A stretch of DNA of 64,000 nt from Sutcliffiella horikoshii DSM 8719 (lineage in GTDB: Bacteria; Bacillota; Bacilli; Bacillales; Bacillaceae_I). Of the stretch, positions 2,876-39,340 are shown one piece after another (the first letter of the stretch is position 1; each line of letters starts with the position of its first letter). The DNA lies in the NCBI GenBank assembly GCA_001648575.1, contig LQXN01000061.1, positions 62,001-126,000 of the forward strand, given 5' to 3'. Both the position numbers and the translations under genes were made by a program. A model generated the notes under the pieces. The model saw only the letters and a list, made by a program, of their open reading frames with translations. It ran no database searches and was not told where the DNA came from.

Positions 2876-2903
2876 TTGAACGGCACCTTGTGCGTGGTAT
2901 AGT
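2876..2903 (+). promoter_or_regulatory. SigmaA-type promoter for the D-threonine aldolase-like gene
   Basis: -35 TTGAAC (2876-2881), 16-bp spacer, -10 TATAGT (2898-2903), ending 29 bases before the start codon at 2933. Confidence 0.6.
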
Positions 2904-2932
2904 GGGGGAAAGATGGTCTGGGAGGAGAAAAA

Positions 2933-4042
2933 ATGAATCAGAAATGGAAGGATCTTGATACACCAGCATTATTACTCGATAAACCGGCTCTATTGGCTAA
3001 CATACAAACAATGAGTGAATTTGCAAAAGAAAACAGCTTGAACTTACGCCCCCATATCAAAACCCATAAATCAATAGAAATCGCCAATCTCCAGATGGAG
3101 CACGGCGCCATTGGACTCACCACAGCCAAGCTAGAAGAAGCGGAAGTTATGGCAGATGCAGGTATCACTGATATTTTAGTAGCCTATCCAGTTTCCAGTC
3201 AGGTGAAAATAGAGCGGGCGATCAGACTGCTCCAAAAAGGAACTGACCTGAAGCTTGCAGTGGATAGTTTGGAGCAAATCAAGCTATTGCAAAAAGCGCT
3301 GGAAAAAACGGGACATACCATTGAGGTCTGGATCAAAGTGAATTCCGGATTGAATCGTTGCGGCGTGGAACCGGGGGAAGACGCTGTGGAACTGGCTAAG
3401 GCGGTGTTATTTCTGTCACAGCTTCGAATTGGAGGGATCTTTACTCATGCAGGACATTCTTATGGGGCAAAAAATGCGGAGGAATTGAAACACATCGCGT
3501 TGGCAGAGGCCGAAGCGGTAGTAAGCAGCGCAGAGGCTTGCGAGAAAGCAGGCATTCCTATACCGGTGAGAAGCGTGGGTTCCACGCCTACCTACCGCCT
3601 AGCAGGTACGGTCGACGGAATTACAGAAGTCAGACCGGGGAATGCGGTATTTTTTGATAGCATCCAAGTAGGACTTGGGGTAGCAAAAAGGGAGCAATGT
3701 GCACTTTCGGTGCTTGTTTCTGTGGTTGGTGTTTATAAGGATAGAATCGTTCTTGATAGCGGTAGTAAAACGCTGTGTCTTGATAAAGGGGCACATGGCC
3801 TGGATTCAGTTAAAGGATATGGGTTTGTGGTGGATCATCCGGAGCTGACGATTGAAAGGCTGTCTGAAGAGCATGGTGTGGCGGTGTTTGAGAACAGCAG
3901 TGACTTGCGGTTGAATGACAAAGTGCGGATCATCCCCAATCATGCCTGTACTGTGGCAAATATGTTTGATGAATATACTCTAGTGGAAGGGGATCGTGTT
4001 TCTGGTCAGTGGAAAGTGGATGCGAGAGGGATGAGGAAATAG
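2933..4042 (+). CDS. D-threonine aldolase / D-serine dehydratase family PLP enzyme
   Basis: A 369-residue fold-type III (alanine-racemase-like) PLP enzyme. RPHIKTHK at residues 39-46 holds the expected PLP lysine (Lys43). The C-terminal NHACTVANMF supplies the His and Cys metal ligands of the D-threonine aldolase/DSD1 family. Known members cleave D-3-hydroxyamino acids to glycine and an aldehyde, or deaminate D-serine, with a divalent metal; which reaction applies here cannot be decided. GGAGGAG precedes the ATG. It has its own promoter and diverges from the HpaB-like gene. Confidence 0.85.
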   Translation: MNQKWKDLDTPALLLDKPALLANIQTMSEFAKENSLNLRPHIKTHKSIEIANLQMEHGAIGLTTAKLEEAEVMADAGITDILVAYPVSSQVKIERAIRLLQKGTDLKLAVDSLEQIKLLQKALEKTGHTIEVWIKVNSGLNRCGVEPGEDAVELAKAVLFLSQLRIGGIFTHAGHSYGAKNAEELKHIALAEAEAVVSSAEACEKAGIPIPVRSVGSTPTYRLAGTVDGITEVRPGNAVFFDSIQVGLGVAKREQCALSVLVSVVGVYKDRIVLDSGSKTLCLDKGAHGLDSVKGYGFVVDHPELTIERLSEEHGVAVFENSSDLRLNDKVRIIPNHACTVANMFDEYTLVEGDRVSGQWKVDARGMRK

Positions 4043-4127
4043 GTGAATTATATTATATGCTCTGGTGTGGAAAGACTGGGATTTTGCTTGTTTTTTGACG
4101 AAACTAGAGGATTATGAGAGTTTGAAA

Positions 4128-4190
4128 TGGTTCGGACCTTTGTAGAGTTGGTTTGGACAAGATTGCCGTTGGTTCCTGGTAGGCTTGGAC
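4128..4190 (+). repeat. Three degenerate 21-bp tandem units
   Basis: Units begin TGGTTCGGAC (4128), TGGTTTGGAC (4149) and TGGTTCCTGG (4170), spaced exactly 21 bp, just before the terminator between two convergent genes. A further GGACAA follows near the end of the third unit. The rest of 4043-4127 shows no gene. Confidence 0.55.
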
Positions 4191-4191
4191 A

Positions 4192-4228
4192 AAAAAGCTC
4201 TCCCTCCGGACAGAAAGGAGAGCTTTTT
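4192..4228. terminator. Bidirectional terminator between convergent genes
   Basis: AAAAAGCTCTCC (4192-4203) pairs perfectly with GGAGAGCTTTTT (4217-4228). The A and T tracts on both sides let it serve both the aldolase-like gene and the M20 dipeptidase gene. Confidence 0.85.
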
Positions 4229-4254
4229 ATCCTCGCTTCAAACCGTCACCGGCC

Positions 4255-5643
4255 TCATTCTACATCCATCACAGCTGCCAGCTCCTCCCAATACGCACAA
4301 AGCGTCAACAGCCCTTTGTCAAAATTCTTCAGTTTGAAATTTTCATTCGGCGCATGCACATTATCTGATGGCAAGCCGAAGCCCATCAATACAATCGGTG
4401 CCTGAAGAACTTCATCAAGTGTGGAAACGATTGGCAACGATCCGCCTCCGCGCGTAAAGATGGTCGGGACTTCCCACACCTTTTCATAGGCGCGGCTTGC
4501 CGCTTGGATGGCGGGGTGATTGAAAGGTGTCACAAACGGTGCACCTTTGTCAAAAAGGGAAACTGATATTTCCACTCCAACAGGTTTGTGCCTTGAAACA
4601 TGCTCCTGCAATAAGGCGAGAATTTCATCTGGATCCTGATCTGGCACAAGGCGGCAAGTGATTTTAGCATGCGCTTCAGAAGGAAGGACTGTTTTAATCC
4701 CGTCGCCCTGGAATCCTCCGTATACACCATTCACTTCCAATGTCGGCCGGACCCATGTGCGCTCGTAGAAACTGTATCCTTTTTCACCATAAAACTCCCC
4801 GACACCAACTTCTTCTTTTACTGCATGCTCATTGAATCCGATTGCTTCAAAAGCTGCTTTCTCTTCGTCTGTCAACGGAACCACTTTGTCGTAAAATCCA
4901 TCAACCGTCACCACGCCATCTCCGTCATGGAAGGAATTCAACAATTCCACCACCGCATGAATCGGGTTGGCAACTGCTCCTCCATAAAGCCCGGAGTGCA
5001 GGTCGCGCTTCGGTCCTTTCACATCCAACTGAAATCCGCACATGCCACGGAGGCCGTAACAGATGGTGGGCTTGTCCTCTTCAATCATGGCCGTATCTGA
5101 CACTACCACGACATCTGCAGCAAGCATTTCTTTATTTTCCTCCACAAAAGATGGTAGGTTCGGACTTCCGACTTCCTCTTCGCCTTCAATGCAGAACTTG
5201 AAGTTGAATGGCAATGTTCCGGTTGTGGCAAGAACTGCTTCCAACGCCTTCAAATGCATGAATGTTTGCCCTTTGTCATCGCTGGCACCTCGTGCATAAA
5301 TACGCTCGTCCCGGATTGCAGGCTCGAATGGCGGGGTATCCCATAAATGTAGGGGATCAACAGGCTGTACATCATAGTGCCCATAGATCAGTACGGTTGG
5401 CTTATCAGGCGCCTTCAGCCATTCACCATATACGATCGGGTGGCCACTTGTAGGGTGCAGCCCTACATTCTCCATACCGAGTCCCCTTAAGGAATTTGCC
5501 ATCCATTCTGCCGCACGCATGGTATCGGCATTATGCGCAGGAAGGGCGCTGATGCTTGGGATGGAGAGCAGATCCTGAAGTTCTTTCAAATGCTTTTCTC
5601 TATGCTCAGATAAATAGGAAGTGATAGTTGCTGCTATTGTCAT
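4255..5643 (-). CDS. M20-family dipeptidase
   Basis: A 462-residue zinc-dependent dipeptidase of the M20 family, carnosinase/CNDP2-like branch. GHYDVQP (88-94) carries metal ligand His89 and Asp91; ARGASDDKG (117-125) carries the bridging aspartate; EGEEEVGSP (153-161) carries the general-base glutamate and a further ligand. RGGGSLP near residue 407 belongs to the lid domain. There is no signal peptide, so it is cytoplasmic and probably finishes breakdown of imported peptides. It is followed on the same strand by the terminator at 4192 and lies downstream of the amidase gene. Confidence 0.9.
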   Translation of the reverse strand: MTIAATITSYLSEHREKHLKELQDLLSIPSISALPAHNADTMRAAEWMANSLRGLGMENVGLHPTSGHPIVYGEWLKAPDKPTVLIYGHYDVQPVDPLHLWDTPPFEPAIRDERIYARGASDDKGQTFMHLKALEAVLATTGTLPFNFKFCIEGEEEVGSPNLPSFVEENKEMLAADVVVVSDTAMIEEDKPTICYGLRGMCGFQLDVKGPKRDLHSGLYGGAVANPIHAVVELLNSFHDGDGVVTVDGFYDKVVPLTDEEKAAFEAIGFNEHAVKEEVGVGEFYGEKGYSFYERTWVRPTLEVNGVYGGFQGDGIKTVLPSEAHAKITCRLVPDQDPDEILALLQEHVSRHKPVGVEISVSLFDKGAPFVTPFNHPAIQAASRAYEKVWEVPTIFTRGGGSLPIVSTLDEVLQAPIVLMGFGLPSDNVHAPNENFKLKNFDKGLLTLCAYWEELAAVMDVE

Positions 5644-32137: not shown

Positions 32138-32180
32138 AAAAACCTGGATTTCTCATTTTCGAGAGATTCAGGTTTCTTTT
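32136..32180. terminator. Bidirectional terminator overlapping the sortase stop region
   Basis: AAACCTGGATTTCTC pairs with GAGAGATTCAGGTTT around ATTTTC, with A and T tracts on the two sides. The right arm is inside the 3' end of the sortase gene. Confidence 0.75.
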
Positions 32181-32845
32181 AATTCCGAGTAAATCACAAG
32201 GCGTTCTTCATGATTGTTTGTTTTACGGTCATAAAGCCCTGTGCAAGTGATTAAATTCAATTGTTTGTTATTGGCAGGGCCGAAGATGCTTCTTATAGGT
32301 GCTGCGTCATATGGATAGGATTCCTTTTTCTTCACCACAAAGATTAAGGTTTCCTTACCATCATCCACCAAAATTTCATCCCCAACTTCTAAATCTTTCA
32401 AATCAAAAAAAACAGCAGGGCCAGTAAAATCGTCTACATGTGCAGCCAAGACAGCGTTCCCGTATCCTCCTGGCTTGGTGCCAGGTTCAAACCACGCTAC
32501 TGTTTCTCCATCTTCCGGAACCGCCATTGCGCCAGTGCCTTCATCAATGGCAAAGGGTTCTATTACTGCATCGACGGAAATTGCAGGTATGGTTAACCGG
32601 GTGGGGGTTATAGCTGTATTAGTTTTTCTTTCTGACTTTGGATTATCGGCTCTATCTTCCTCGGGGGCATTTCCTTGAGCCTCATTTTCCTCTGTATAGG
32701 AAGCGATTTCTTCCGCTGGAGCATTTGTAGACTCCGGCGGAAGGTTGTTTGTAGCTTCTTCTTGAACAAAAGGTGTACAAGCTGTAAAAAATAGTAACAG
32801 TGATCCTAAAAGAATTAGAAGTTTACTATTGTTTTTGTGCTGCAA
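32168..32845 (-). CDS. Class F-type sortase with lipoprotein-like signal
   Basis: A 225-residue sortase. A hydrophobic segment ends LLFFTAC at Cys23, a possible lipobox, then an acidic, Pro-rich linker to residue 78 and the sortase barrel. The catalytic residues are His136 (LAAHVDD), Cys201 (LITCTG) and Arg215 (EERLVIYS). The start is TTG at 32845 with GGAG 9 bases upstream; an in-frame TTG at 32860 also exists. It overlaps the end of the preceding gene by 20 bases, so translation is coupled and that protein is the likely substrate. It should attach it to cell wall or another amine acceptor. Confidence 0.88.
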   Translation of the reverse strand: MQHKNNSKLLILLGSLLLFFTACTPFVQEEATNNLPPESTNAPAEEIASYTEENEAQGNAPEEDRADNPKSERKTNTAITPTRLTIPAISVDAVIEPFAIDEGTGAMAVPEDGETVAWFEPGTKPGGYGNAVLAAHVDDFTGPAVFFDLKDLEVGDEILVDDGKETLIFVVKKKESYPYDAAPIRSIFGPANNKQLNLITCTGLYDRKTNNHEERLVIYSELKET

Positions 32846-33629
32846 AGCGGCGCACTCCAACTATCGCTGCTCCAACCACCATAAGTCCAGCAATCAAAGC
32901 CCAAGAGTTGATGCCATTGGATTGTGATGCGCCGCCCATCCCTGTATGGGGCATCTCGCTTGGCATCATTGTATTATCTTCTAAAAGTAAAACTTCAATG
33001 CTGTCTACTGTATTAATAGCGTAAACGGAGTATACTTTATTTTCCTCAAGCATTGTTCCGGATAAATCTAATACTTGGTCTCCAGCGTCAGCTGTACGGA
33101 CTTCCAAGTCGTAAGTTCCTGCATCAAGTGTCATGTAATCAGTTACTGCTTTAAATTCTGCACCGGAGAATACATCATCACCATCGATCAAGCCAACATT
33201 CACTGCCGGAGCGTCAGGCGAGAAGTGACCCACACGAATTTTTGATTGTCCTTCTGCAACCATGTTGTCATCCGTTGTAACAGAAAGTTCAAGGTTCTCT
33301 AGCGTGTTGATTGCTGCCACTGTATAAGACATACCAGCCTCCACCGTCAGATCAGCAGCGATGACAGGGTCGGCTTGGCCCATTGTTCCAGCTGCATAAA
33401 TTTCAACCTCGTGCGTTCCTGCAGGCAGATTCATATAATCAGTAGCCGCTTTGAATTCCGCATTTTCCACAGTTGCTTCACCATTTACATAAACATCAAC
33501 TGCCGGGGCATCTGGGGAAGCATGAATAATACGGACCATAGCATGATCATCCGCATTTGCAATGTTTCCCAACACGGAAAATGCCAAAATACTAGCGATA
33601 CCTGCAAGCAATAAACGTAACTTTTTCAA
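32826..33629 (-). CDS. Secreted two-repeat DUF4397 protein with MPHTG sorting signal
   Basis: A 267-residue cell-surface protein. The signal peptide (1-27, ending ANA) is followed by two copies of a DUF4397 beta domain (about 30-125 and 128-218); both contain PDAPAV and AEFKA-TDYM strings. The C-terminus is a sorting signal: MPHTG (226-230), a linker, a membrane segment (242-259) and a basic VRRF tail. MPHTG differs from LPxTG. Its own sortase gene follows and overlaps, so the two form a dedicated pair. The binding target of the DUF4397 domains is unknown. Confidence 0.9.
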   Translation of the reverse strand: MKKLRLLLAGIASILAFSVLGNIANADDHAMVRIIHASPDAPAVDVYVNGEATVENAEFKAATDYMNLPAGTHEVEIYAAGTMGQADPVIAADLTVEAGMSYTVAAINTLENLELSVTTDDNMVAEGQSKIRVGHFSPDAPAVNVGLIDGDDVFSGAEFKAVTDYMTLDAGTYDLEVRTADAGDQVLDLSGTMLEENKVYSVYAINTVDSIEVLLLEDNTMMPSEMPHTGMGGASQSNGINSWALIAGLMVVGAAIVGVRRFAAQKQ

Positions 33630-33658
33630 TCAAATCTCTCCCTTTTGTATAATTTATG

Positions 33659-33682
33659 TACAGGTGATGTTCATCTCCTGTA
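33659..33682. promoter_or_regulatory. 24-bp near-perfect palindrome before the sortase-substrate operon
   Basis: TACAGGTGATG (33659-33669) and CATCTCCTGTA (33672-33682) form a palindrome with one mismatch and a 2-base centre, 30 bases upstream of the DUF4397 gene start, flanked by TTATAC-like -10 sequences on the minus strand. It fits an operator for a dimeric repressor better than a terminator. Confidence 0.5.
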
Positions 33683-33818
33683 TAACAAATATATACCACG
33701 ATATCTTGAATTAAAACTAATAATGTGTTCATGAATGTGTTTTTGAAAATGAAAGTTTTGTTTTATAAGAGGATACTGCGGGTATTACAACTCTATAAAC
33801 CTGAGGAGGCGATTATTT

Positions 33819-37244: not shown

Positions 37245-37922
37245 ATGTGCAAAGTCCTAATAATAGAAGATGAAAAAAACCTAGCACGATTTATTGAGCT
37301 GGAATTACAATACGAAGGTTTCACCGTCTCCACTTCCTATGACGGGAGAGAGGGACTTGAGCTTGCATTAGCAAAAGAGTGGGATATCATCCTGCTTGAT
37401 TTGATGCTTCCTGGCCTGAGCGGGATGGAAGTGTGCCGGAGAATAAGAACTGCCAAAGAAACTCCCATCATCATGCTGACTGCAAGGGACAGTGTGATGG
37501 ATAAAGTATCCGGCCTTGATAGTGGTGCAGATGATTACATGTCCAAGCCATTTGCGATTGAAGAGCTTTTGGCAAGGATTCGTGCACTTTTGCGTCGTAT
37601 GGAAGGTAAAAAGAATGAAAAAAACAATATCCTGTCCTTCCGTGAGCTGGAAGTTGATCTTGACGCAAGAACGGTTATTAGAGCCGGGGAACAGATTGAG
37701 CTGACCAAAAGGGAATTTGACCTCCTGGTAATTTTTATGACAAATATTAACAGAGTGCTGACAAGGGAGCTTCTTTTAGATAAGGTGTGGGAGCTGGGGT
37801 CCTACGCTGAAACCAACGTTGTGGACGTATATGTTCGCTATCTACGGAACAAAATCGATAAGCCTGATGAAGAAAGCTACATACAAACAGTGCGCGGGAC
37901 GGGTTATGTGATGAGAAAATGA
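37245..37922 (+). CDS. OmpR/PhoB-family response regulator (ArlR/YkoG-like)
   Basis: A 225-residue regulator. The receiver domain has the acidic pocket (Glu8, Asp9), phosphoacceptor Asp52, Thr79 and Lys101. The C-terminal winged helix shows ELTKREFDLL and NVVDVYVRYLRNKID, very close to ArlR/YkoG. GGAGGTG precedes the ATG. The kinase gene overlaps by 4 bases (ATGA), so they are an operon. Candidate operators lie upstream of this gene and of the htrA-like gene, which suggests autoregulation and control of HtrA. Confidence 0.93.
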   Translation: MCKVLIIEDEKNLARFIELELQYEGFTVSTSYDGREGLELALAKEWDIILLDLMLPGLSGMEVCRRIRTAKETPIIMLTARDSVMDKVSGLDSGADDYMSKPFAIEELLARIRALLRRMEGKKNEKNNILSFRELEVDLDARTVIRAGEQIELTKREFDLLVIFMTNINRVLTRELLLDKVWELGSYAETNVVDVYVRYLRNKIDKPDEESYIQTVRGTGYVMRK

Positions 37923-39340
37923 ATCGATTTCAACGATATATGAAGCAACTCCCGATCAGATGGAAAATAACCATTTGGTCCTCATTGGTTTTATTCGTCC
38001 TTTTCATTGCGTACAATTCTGTTCAATATTATGTGATGAGAACATGGATGATTGAACAGGAAGAACGAAATATACAGGAAAAGATGAAAGAGATACAGGC
38101 CTATTTCTCCGAGCAGCCTTTTTTTGTGGGTCGTTCGGAAATCATCAACAGCAGCGGATTTATAGAAAAAGTAAATGAAACGAATGAACTGATCCGGATA
38201 ATAGATAAAGACGGTGCCCTCCTTGTGGCAGTTGCCACTAACCTGCCGAGGGAAATGCTCATCACCCCTGTTGAGAGCGAAAATCTCGAACATGTAAAAG
38301 TAAATGGAAAACATTATTTAATTCACCGGGAACCAGTGATAACAAATGGATTTATTGGGTACATAGAAATTATACGCGATTTGAAAAACTATGAACGGCT
38401 GCGCGGGTTGATATTCCTTGTGACCTGGTCGGCAGGTGCAGGCGCCATCCTCTTAAGCGGTGTCGGCGGAATGCTCATTGCCAAACAGCTGCTTGCTCCG
38501 ATCCAAGCGCTAACCGATACGATGAAACGCATCAAAATGCGTGGCTTCAAAGAACGCGTTCCCCAAGATAAAAATCAAAAGGATGAAATTGCAGATTTAT
38601 CGAATGTGTTTAATGAGATGATGGATGACGTGGAAATGTCTTTTCAAAAGCAGAAGCAATTTGTGGAGGATGCCTCCCATGAACTGAGGACGCCAATCTC
38701 CATATTGGAAGGGCACTTGAAGCTGTTGAACCGTTGGGGGAAAAATGACCCCGAGGTACTTGAGGAGTCATTGAAAGCGTCCCAACAAGAAGTGGAGAGG
38801 CTGAAAATGCTCGTGTATGAGCTTTTGGAGCTGACCCGCTTGGAATCCGACCGACTTGAAGTGGTGGAAGACCTGACAGAGCCAGTAAGTGTTGTGGAAG
38901 ATGTAATAAAAAAATTCACATTGCTCCACCCTGACTTTACTTTTTCATTTATTAATCAACTGCAAGAGCCGGCTAAAGTTGCCATAGCGGAAAGGCATCT
39001 CGAGCAGGTACTCATCATATTGATTGATAACGCAGTGAAATATTCCAGCCAATCCAGTACGGTGGAGGTCATTACAGATAAAAATGACAATCAGTTCACG
39101 GTCTCCATTAAAGACTACGGCATTGGAGTCCCTCAAGAAGATCTGCAGAAAATATTCGACCGTTTCTATAGAGTGGATAAAGCTCGCAGCAGGGAAAAAG
39201 GCGGCCAGGGACTTGGACTTTCCATCGCTAAAAGAATGGTGGATAACTATAACGGTTCCATTGTTGCTGATAGTGTCGAGGGAGAATGGACCATGATTAC
39301 TGTCACTCTGAATGGTGTTTTTGAAGTAAATGAAACATAA
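37919..39340 (+). CDS. Two-component sensor kinase (ArlS/YkoH-like)
   Basis: A 473-residue membrane kinase: TM1 at about 19-40, an extracellular domain of about 120 residues, TM2 at about 163-187, a HAMP segment, HisKA with His in DASHELRTPISIL, and HATPase_c with NAVKYS, DYGIGV and GGQGLGLSIA. The extracellular loop should sense an envelope signal. The start overlaps the regulator stop as ATGA. The adjacent HtrA protease suggests a role in envelope or secretion stress, although the regulator is more like ArlR than CssR. Confidence 0.93.
   Translation: MNRFQRYMKQLPIRWKITIWSSLVLFVLFIAYNSVQYYVMRTWMIEQEERNIQEKMKEIQAYFSEQPFFVGRSEIINSSGFIEKVNETNELIRIIDKDGALLVAVATNLPREMLITPVESENLEHVKVNGKHYLIHREPVITNGFIGYIEIIRDLKNYERLRGLIFLVTWSAGAGAILLSGVGGMLIAKQLLAPIQALTDTMKRIKMRGFKERVPQDKNQKDEIADLSNVFNEMMDDVEMSFQKQKQFVEDASHELRTPISILEGHLKLLNRWGKNDPEVLEESLKASQQEVERLKMLVYELLELTRLESDRLEVVEDLTEPVSVVEDVIKKFTLLHPDFTFSFINQLQEPAKVAIAERHLEQVLIILIDNAVKYSSQSSTVEVITDKNDNQFTVSIKDYGIGVPQEDLQKIFDRFYRVDKARSREKGGQGLGLSIAKRMVDNYNGSIVADSVEGEWTMITVTLNGVFEVNET

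Follow-up and report, generated by a model that had tools for sequence, protein, structure and literature searches.

A class F-like sortase and its adjacent DUF4397 protein in Sutcliffiella horikoshii point to an extended sorting signal, MPxTGxGG, that seems to work without a membrane tail in some bacteria

The window analysed here, a 64,000 nt stretch of the Sutcliffiella horikoshii DSM 8719 genome, contains two overlapping genes on the reverse strand, the first encoding a putatively secreted protein and the second a sortase (Table 1). The first ORF (267 aa) is matched over two stretches by the DUF4397 profile PF14344, at 177.3 bits in a Pfam profile scan, and its product has the C-terminus EMPHTGMGGASQSNGINSWALIAGLMVVGAAIVGVRRFAAQKQ. 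The final 42 residues run from MPHTG-MGGASQSNGIN through a membrane segment to RRFAAQKQ, and the three elements by which a cell wall sorting signal is recognised (pentapeptide, hydrophobic segment and basic tail) are all present. Neither Gram_pos_anchor (PF00746) nor TIGR01167 is listed for this protein at E ≤ 0.1. Its AlphaFold model comprises two beta-sandwich domains with a mean pLDDT of 71, falling below 50 in the signal region. A fold search with this model returned the extracellular domains of PepT1 and PepT2 as top matches (TM approximately 0.54), with AlgF domains further down, and no function follows from these matches.

The longest ORF for the sortase begins at TTG 32860 and ends at 32168; the start taken in Table 1, TTG 32845, has a GGAG 9 nt upstream, as judged by eye. 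The overlap with the substrate gene is 20 nt from TTG 32845 and 35 nt from TTG 32860. The product displays each of the hallmarks of the sortase superfamily, scoring 77.9 bits with PF04203 (curated cut-off 26.6), adopting a beta-barrel fold in its model and carrying the His-Cys-Arg residues. Amongst the NCBIfam class models, class F (NF033748) scores highest at 120.6 bits, followed by class E at 55.6 and the others at ≤ 30.4; as 120.6 bits lies below NCBI's curated cut-off of 166 for NF033748, the enzyme is filed here as class F-like, and not as a class F member. The same class F model is matched by 59 of 59 relatives at E ≤ 0.001, and the triad occurs in all 59 aligned sortases, with H136, C201 and R215 of the window enzyme intact. 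The core of its AlphaFold model consists of eight strands with pLDDT values mostly of 95–98, and compares with solved sortases of classes A, C and E at Z scores of about 14–17, and with 5uus (titled as an SrtF sortase) at 15.6, a comparison that did not set class F apart from A, C and E. One relative, L179, was left out of the structure alignment of sortases. A sequence search of solved structures returned nine chains at E of about 3 × 10−4 and four at about 1 × 10−6, which are Thermobifida sortase E by their titles. Many class F-like sortases of the set examined (L003/L038 and L051–L071) are longer, at approximately 300–330 aa, and possess a C-terminal extension of approximately 100 aa that appears fibronectin III-like by eye.

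A lipobox-like cysteine had been pointed out in the sortase by an earlier note made from this DNA, and this is borne out, as Cys23 closes the hydrophobic N-terminus (LLLFFTAC) and a similar cysteine recurs in many relatives. The strict pattern [LVI][ASTVI][GAS]C is not matched by the window enzyme, which has phenylalanine at −3 in FTAC; the ortholog L023 has ILTAC at this point, and all 12 window-type orthologs (L021–L032) have a cysteine closing their hydrophobic N-terminus. When 126 sortase ORFs were tallied with a crude pattern, 39 carried a strict and 24 a relaxed lipobox, with the remainder having a cysteine elsewhere (33), no cysteine (24) or no hydrophobic N-terminus (6); a few of the strict calls (L141, L149) appear wrong by eye. 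Many of these relatives are therefore without a lipobox, and a lipid anchor, as predicted from the N-termini, is likely to be frequent amongst these sortases but not general.

Table 1. Features of the sortase–substrate locus, in window coordinates
Feature	Position	Strand	Basis or remark
Terminator-like inverted repeat at sortase stop	32140..32175	. (listed for + strand)	Terminator scan
Class F-like sortase, 225 aa from TTG 32845	32168..32845	-	Profile matches, AlphaFold core, fold
Catalytic Arg215 codon	32201-32203	-	Triad conserved in alignment
Catalytic Cys201 codon	32243..32245	-	Triad conserved in alignment
Catalytic His136 codon	32438-32440	-	Triad conserved in alignment
Lipobox-like FTAC, putative lipidated Cys23	32777..32788	-	Sequence; relatives similar
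Substrate: putatively secreted protein, two DUF4397 domains and C-terminal sorting signal	32826..33629	-	TTG start
Membrane segment (approximately residues 242–259) and basic tail RRFAAQKQ	32829..32906	-	Sequence; model helix 242–266
Extended sorting motif MPHTGMGG	32931..32954	-	Sequence and conservation; T/G cleavage presumed
Imperfect palindrome; RNA hairpin of the 5′ leader favoured over an operator	33659..33682	-	Symmetry, leader alignment
Promoter-like conserved block GTTTTA-14 nt-GGTATA	33692..33720	-	Leader alignment; just upstream of hairpin

With regard to conservation, related loci are found in Sutcliffiella horikoshii, several Bacillus sp. and Metabacillus iocasae, a set from which very near genomes were possibly omitted. 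The proposal that this is a sortase–substrate pair with a non-LPxTG signal holds up, as does the conservation of the motif beside the sortase in relatives on which that proposal depended: a DUF4397 gene with MPxTGMGG directly precedes the sortase in all nine related loci of the first relatives search, and the pair, the gene overlap and MPxTGMGG are kept in 12/12 window-type orthologs of the genus (own genome included). Across 18 genomes of the family, the sortase profile matches 17 at E ≤ 0.001 (12 of them < 1 × 10−80), including a weak match in G004 (6.5 × 10−4) and, in G016, a fragment with no sortase ORF. DNA encoding MPxTGxGG is present in 14 of the 18 and absent from four, with none for the reversed control. 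The sole family genome without a profile match, G011, harbours an MPNTGMGG substrate gene that appears disrupted by eye in three-frame translation (L156, about 2900–4300), followed on its 3′ side by an apparent leftover of the sortase C-terminal extension, likewise seen by eye; a natural loss of the pair is possible in this genome. In the genus, sortases of a third type (L103, L155, L034) follow a protein of 452–457 aa ending in MPxAGMGG and a tail, so that position 4 of the motif can be alanine. The second type of substrate (L003, L056, L155, L178, L034) has no Pfam match over the cut-off.

A survey of 398 Bacilli genomes for co-occurrence and motif covariation, as the earlier note had proposed, reveals that the pattern tracks the sortase. 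The DNA pattern searched encodes MPxTG[MLVIF]GG, with its reversal as control, and a sortase match was considered strong at E < 1 × 10−20. Whilst the sortase profile matches 129 genomes, 95 of them strongly, the pattern is found in 78, as opposed to five for the control, and a strong sortase accompanies it in 75 of the 78, compared with 20 of the 320 others (Fisher P = 5 × 10−58, uncorrected for kinship). In the three genomes with the pattern only, the motif is either internal to an ORF or outside any ORF, and never forms a C-terminal signal. Of the 20 strong-sortase genomes without the pattern, 15 carry variant signals that are invisible to it (MPKTGAGG, LPKTGYGG, MPTTGLGT, APETGQGG, MPKTGLVQ and others); amongst the 17 of these 20 that were inspected (G135, G279 and G328 being left out), no sortase neighbour was recognised in G186 and G197. 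Every one of 17 inspected motif matches located away from any detected sortase ends an ORF as a signal, and a single sortase may therefore have several substrates; two of these unlinked signals (L168, L169) are at contig ends, where a sortase neighbour could have been cut off, and another (L161) is without a basic tail. As a separate observation, the genes for sortases and substrates are clustered in G347 (L108, L117), a genome with seven sortase matches.

The make-up of the signal was assessed by searching for xPx[TSA][GASN] beside the 122 non-identical sortase ORFs of 126 loci, with positions 7 and 8 left free. Identical sortase ORFs were counted once, L173–L175 were dropped from the signal counts as they are not signals, and L079–L096 did not enter the counts. 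In these loci, which comprise best matches plus a hand-picked spread and in which near-copies within some genera inflate the counts, the neighbour carries the motif and a membrane tail for 93 sortase ORFs and the motif without a tail for 23, with none found for six. The 93 tailed signals divide into 79 MPxTG, 10 MPxAG, two APxTG, one LPxTG and one DPxTS, such that MPx[TA]G accounts for 89. Beyond the pentapeptide, glycine occupies position 7 in 91/93 and position 8 in 84/93. A class A enzyme, too, may accept methionine at position 1. The GxGG extension, which the earlier note did not mention, proves more telling than this methionine.

The tail-less neighbours are secreted and mostly small proteins, rich in lysine and histidine, with a stop codon 6–9 residues past the motif, e.g. 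HIKGMPKTGMGGASN. Removal of one double count (G209, as L111 and L196) and addition of L123 and L191, which the thresholds had missed, turns the 23 into 24 tail-less signals from 24 genomes under four family codes (f37, 14; f27, six; f19, three; f12, one). The residues P, T, G, G, G and S are identical in 24/24 of these ends, where each is encoded by 2–4 different codons, and this synonymous variation argues for protein-level selection on the peptide; the pattern collecting the 24 ends itself required the fixed residues, positions 7 and 8 having been free in the search beside the 122 ORFs. Among the remaining 4,390 ORFs of these loci a single one, L191, has such an end, and it is itself a sortase neighbour. 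On a tree with 59 sortases, 54 of them labelled, two changes account for the tail-less state: one for a clade of 14 (SH-aLRT 93), the other for L149, which sits on a long branch and is a divergent sortase whose placement may be wrong. The neighbour of L149 is telling, as it is a tail-less DUF4397 protein whose alignment with the window substrate extends as far as GGAS, where the protein stops. From the tail-less stop to the first sortase start codon, the distance is −23 to 119 nt in 22 of the 24 loci; the exceptions are L109 and L191, whose longest sortase ORF starts further upstream (−134 and −188, respectively). A membrane tail hidden by a frameshift after the motif was also considered, and is unsupported by the hydrophobic windows near the stop: in 16/24 loci every such window within 300 nt of the stop is in the sortase's own frame, and in the other eight some are in another frame, the first of them 29–76 nt past the stop.

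At the level of sequence, then, the DUF4397/sortase pair, its motif and catalytic residues, the co-occurrence of signal and enzyme, and the tail-less relatives of the signal are all in evidence. From these, class F sortases probably recognise a longer signal, in which GxGG can stand in for the membrane tail, and MPxTGxGG seems to be an overlooked anchoring signal that is common to many related bacteria and works without a membrane tail in some. A broader proposition is about as likely as not: that there is a second kind of signal for class F sortases, [M/G][P/V]x[T/A]GxGG, which is informative on both sides of the cut, and for which a bare C-terminal peptide suffices. Under this extended reading, the bare signal is predicted to work without a membrane tail since the enzyme would be bound by the GxGG(AS) that follows the cut, and we infer that it is the GxGG which allows some substrates to dispense with a membrane-retention tail.

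It is also conceivable, if doubtful, that the tail-less proteins are not substrates, and that their C-terminus instead serves the sortase as a docking or regulatory peptide, or that the proteins themselves are a lysine-rich acceptor. Their mostly short, Lys/His-rich nature would accord with such roles, as would the missing retention tail, which classical signals need; against them, the proteins occupy the place of the tailed substrates before the sortase gene, and the tail-less L149 protein matches the window substrate up to GGAS. Were the tail-less proteins substrates, as is preferred here, then freely secreted, often Lys/His-rich small proteins would be attached by an often lipid-anchored sortase, which would break with the rule that a membrane-retention tail is required of sortase substrates. 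Short soluble substrates of this kind would, in addition, suit protein ligation tools.

Upstream of the pair, the leader contains the 24 bp palindrome that the earlier note had called an operator. The palindrome exists, with 10 of 12 pairs, but the designation as an operator fares less well. The window holds six such 24 bp palindromes, and ten single-base block shuffles gave 1–5, which places the symmetry alone near chance. In 11 distinct leaders the outer TACA/TGTA is invariant throughout, whereas the centre has diverged; five of ten stem pairs are unchanged, both partners have changed in three, and pairing holds for 91 % of cells. The stem was defined from the same 11 sequences that were scored, which favours it, and in a control with 500 shuffles, four of the five measures were reached by 17 to 27 of them and the fifth by 123. 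A stem kept partly by G–U pairs around a centre that is not conserved fits an mRNA hairpin, and the evidence leans towards a hairpin in the RNA explaining the palindrome at least as well as an operator does. A true operator for a repressor is accordingly rather unlikely: its near-perfect symmetry stands at the expected place and its outer TACA/TGTA is the same in every distinct leader, yet that symmetry is near chance, the stem persists through G–U pairs and both-sided changes (with the modest control above), and the site is unique in its own genome within three mismatches of the W-degenerate pattern, although a single-site operator is possible. Nor do the ORFs of the window include a regulator gene adjacent to the pair, which also counts against the description of the unit as regulated; a two-component pair, named by eye, is 3.6 kb away at 37245–39340. 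A sigma-70 scan gave no site at the conserved block just upstream of the hairpin, which we take to resemble a sigma-B-type promoter.

The genome from which the window derives has four sortases. A second class F-like sortase is encoded on contig C63, with a substrate ending in EMPNTGMGG and a membrane tail, and a further sortase on C60 (L002), presumably class D-like, follows a protein ending in MPDTA and a membrane tail. The latter pair resembles that of the window in its adjacent, membrane-tailed substrate, but differs in its MPDTA signal and in having no GxGG; in the related genome G004, a sortase adjoining an MPNTA protein (L037) scores just 22.6 bits with the window sortase family profile. 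Two other DUF4397 proteins of the same genome (L006, L007) carry no sorting motif, indicating that it is the signal, and not DUF4397, that goes with the sortase. Given the second class F-like sortase with its MPNTGMGG substrate and the unlinked signal carriers elsewhere, the term self-contained, as used in the earlier note, is too strong. It is improbable, however, that one of the other three sortases, be it the class F-like enzyme of C63 or either of the remaining two, anchors the DUF4397 protein whilst the adjacent gene is redundant or acts elsewhere; the C63 enzyme, having an MPNTGMGG substrate of its own, could share substrates with that of the window, but the gene overlap is kept in every window-type ortholog, and sortase and DUF4397 are paired in each of the nine related loci.

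We thus consider it highly probable that the two overlapping genes constitute a sortase–substrate unit, in which MPxTGxGG is read, cut between T and G, and the protein transferred to the envelope. In such a scheme, the DUF4397 protein would be secreted and held at the membrane by its tail (the tail-less proteins perhaps by their basic body), with the class F-like sortase held on the outer face of the membrane, probably as a lipoprotein. Recognition would occur via the extended MPxTGxGG, of which the GxGG starts at the presumed cut site and is nearly as conserved as the pentapeptide. The sortase would then cut MPHTG-MGG between T and G, and the cut substrate would be transferred to an acceptor in the cell envelope, most likely peptidoglycan. 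Lipidation, the cleavage site, the acceptor and a translational coupling of the window pair are those elements of the scheme that we infer. A mainly hydrolytic enzyme that trims or releases the surface protein, and removes a short C-terminal peptide from tail-less substrates, has a similarly small chance of being correct as anchoring by another sortase, for although so few residues remain after T-G in the tail-less proteins and no acceptor gene is common to the displayed neighbourhoods (by eye), the transpeptidase triad is complete, and the trimming of a few residues would hardly account for such strict conservation.

In comparison with described systems, the window signal is like the canonical LPxTG signal in its motif, membrane segment, basic tail and presumed T/G cut, and is unlike it in the GxGG at the cut site and in the existence of 24 relatives without a membrane tail. 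Class F, the best class for the window sortase, is also that of Cutibacterium acnes SrtF (NF033748), which is described as reading LPXTG (PMC13257024), in contrast with the MPxTGxGG predicted for the window family. The GVDTG sorting domain (NF058571, cut-off 29) has GVx before TG where the window signal has MPx, and scores 17.8 bits with the window substrate and 22.0 with that of L021, both below the cut-off. Amongst seven scanned neighbours it covers one, from Streptomyces (L203, 36.5 bits), with L182 at 27.1 falling below. What class F sortases do physiologically is not yet known, according to a 2026 mBio paper (PMC13251363), in which two proteins encoded beside SrtF1 and SrtF4 are noted as possible substrates and left out for want of a known pentapeptide. 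A sortase together with MPXTG, MPKTG or DUF4397 was not found in the PMC literature, a resource that does not cover most subscription journals. A defined signal would make the substrates of class F sortases predictable, perhaps across phyla.

Beyond the Bacilli, 33 plasmid records have a tblastn match, of which 20 are annotated as class F sortase and two as sortase, with no gene listed for the remaining 11. For comparison, 18 class F loci were fetched from Actinobacteria and Thermomicrobium; one, L183, has no substrate-like neighbour by inspection. The C-termini at the other 17, assessed by eye, comprise eight with [TA]GxGG, five more with [TA]GxG and four with neither, counts in which some agreement could be chance, as these tails are glycine-rich, and in which some loci are near-copies. 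Judged from these C-termini, many neighbours of Actinobacterial class F sortases appear to share a [TA]GxG(G) core, and examples include GVGAGLGG (Streptomyces), HPETGAGG (Rhodococcus) and HVGTGGGS (Thermomicrobium). The last of these belongs to a plasmid of Thermomicrobium roseum (L205), on which, in another phylum, a DUF4397 protein again adjoins a class F sortase.
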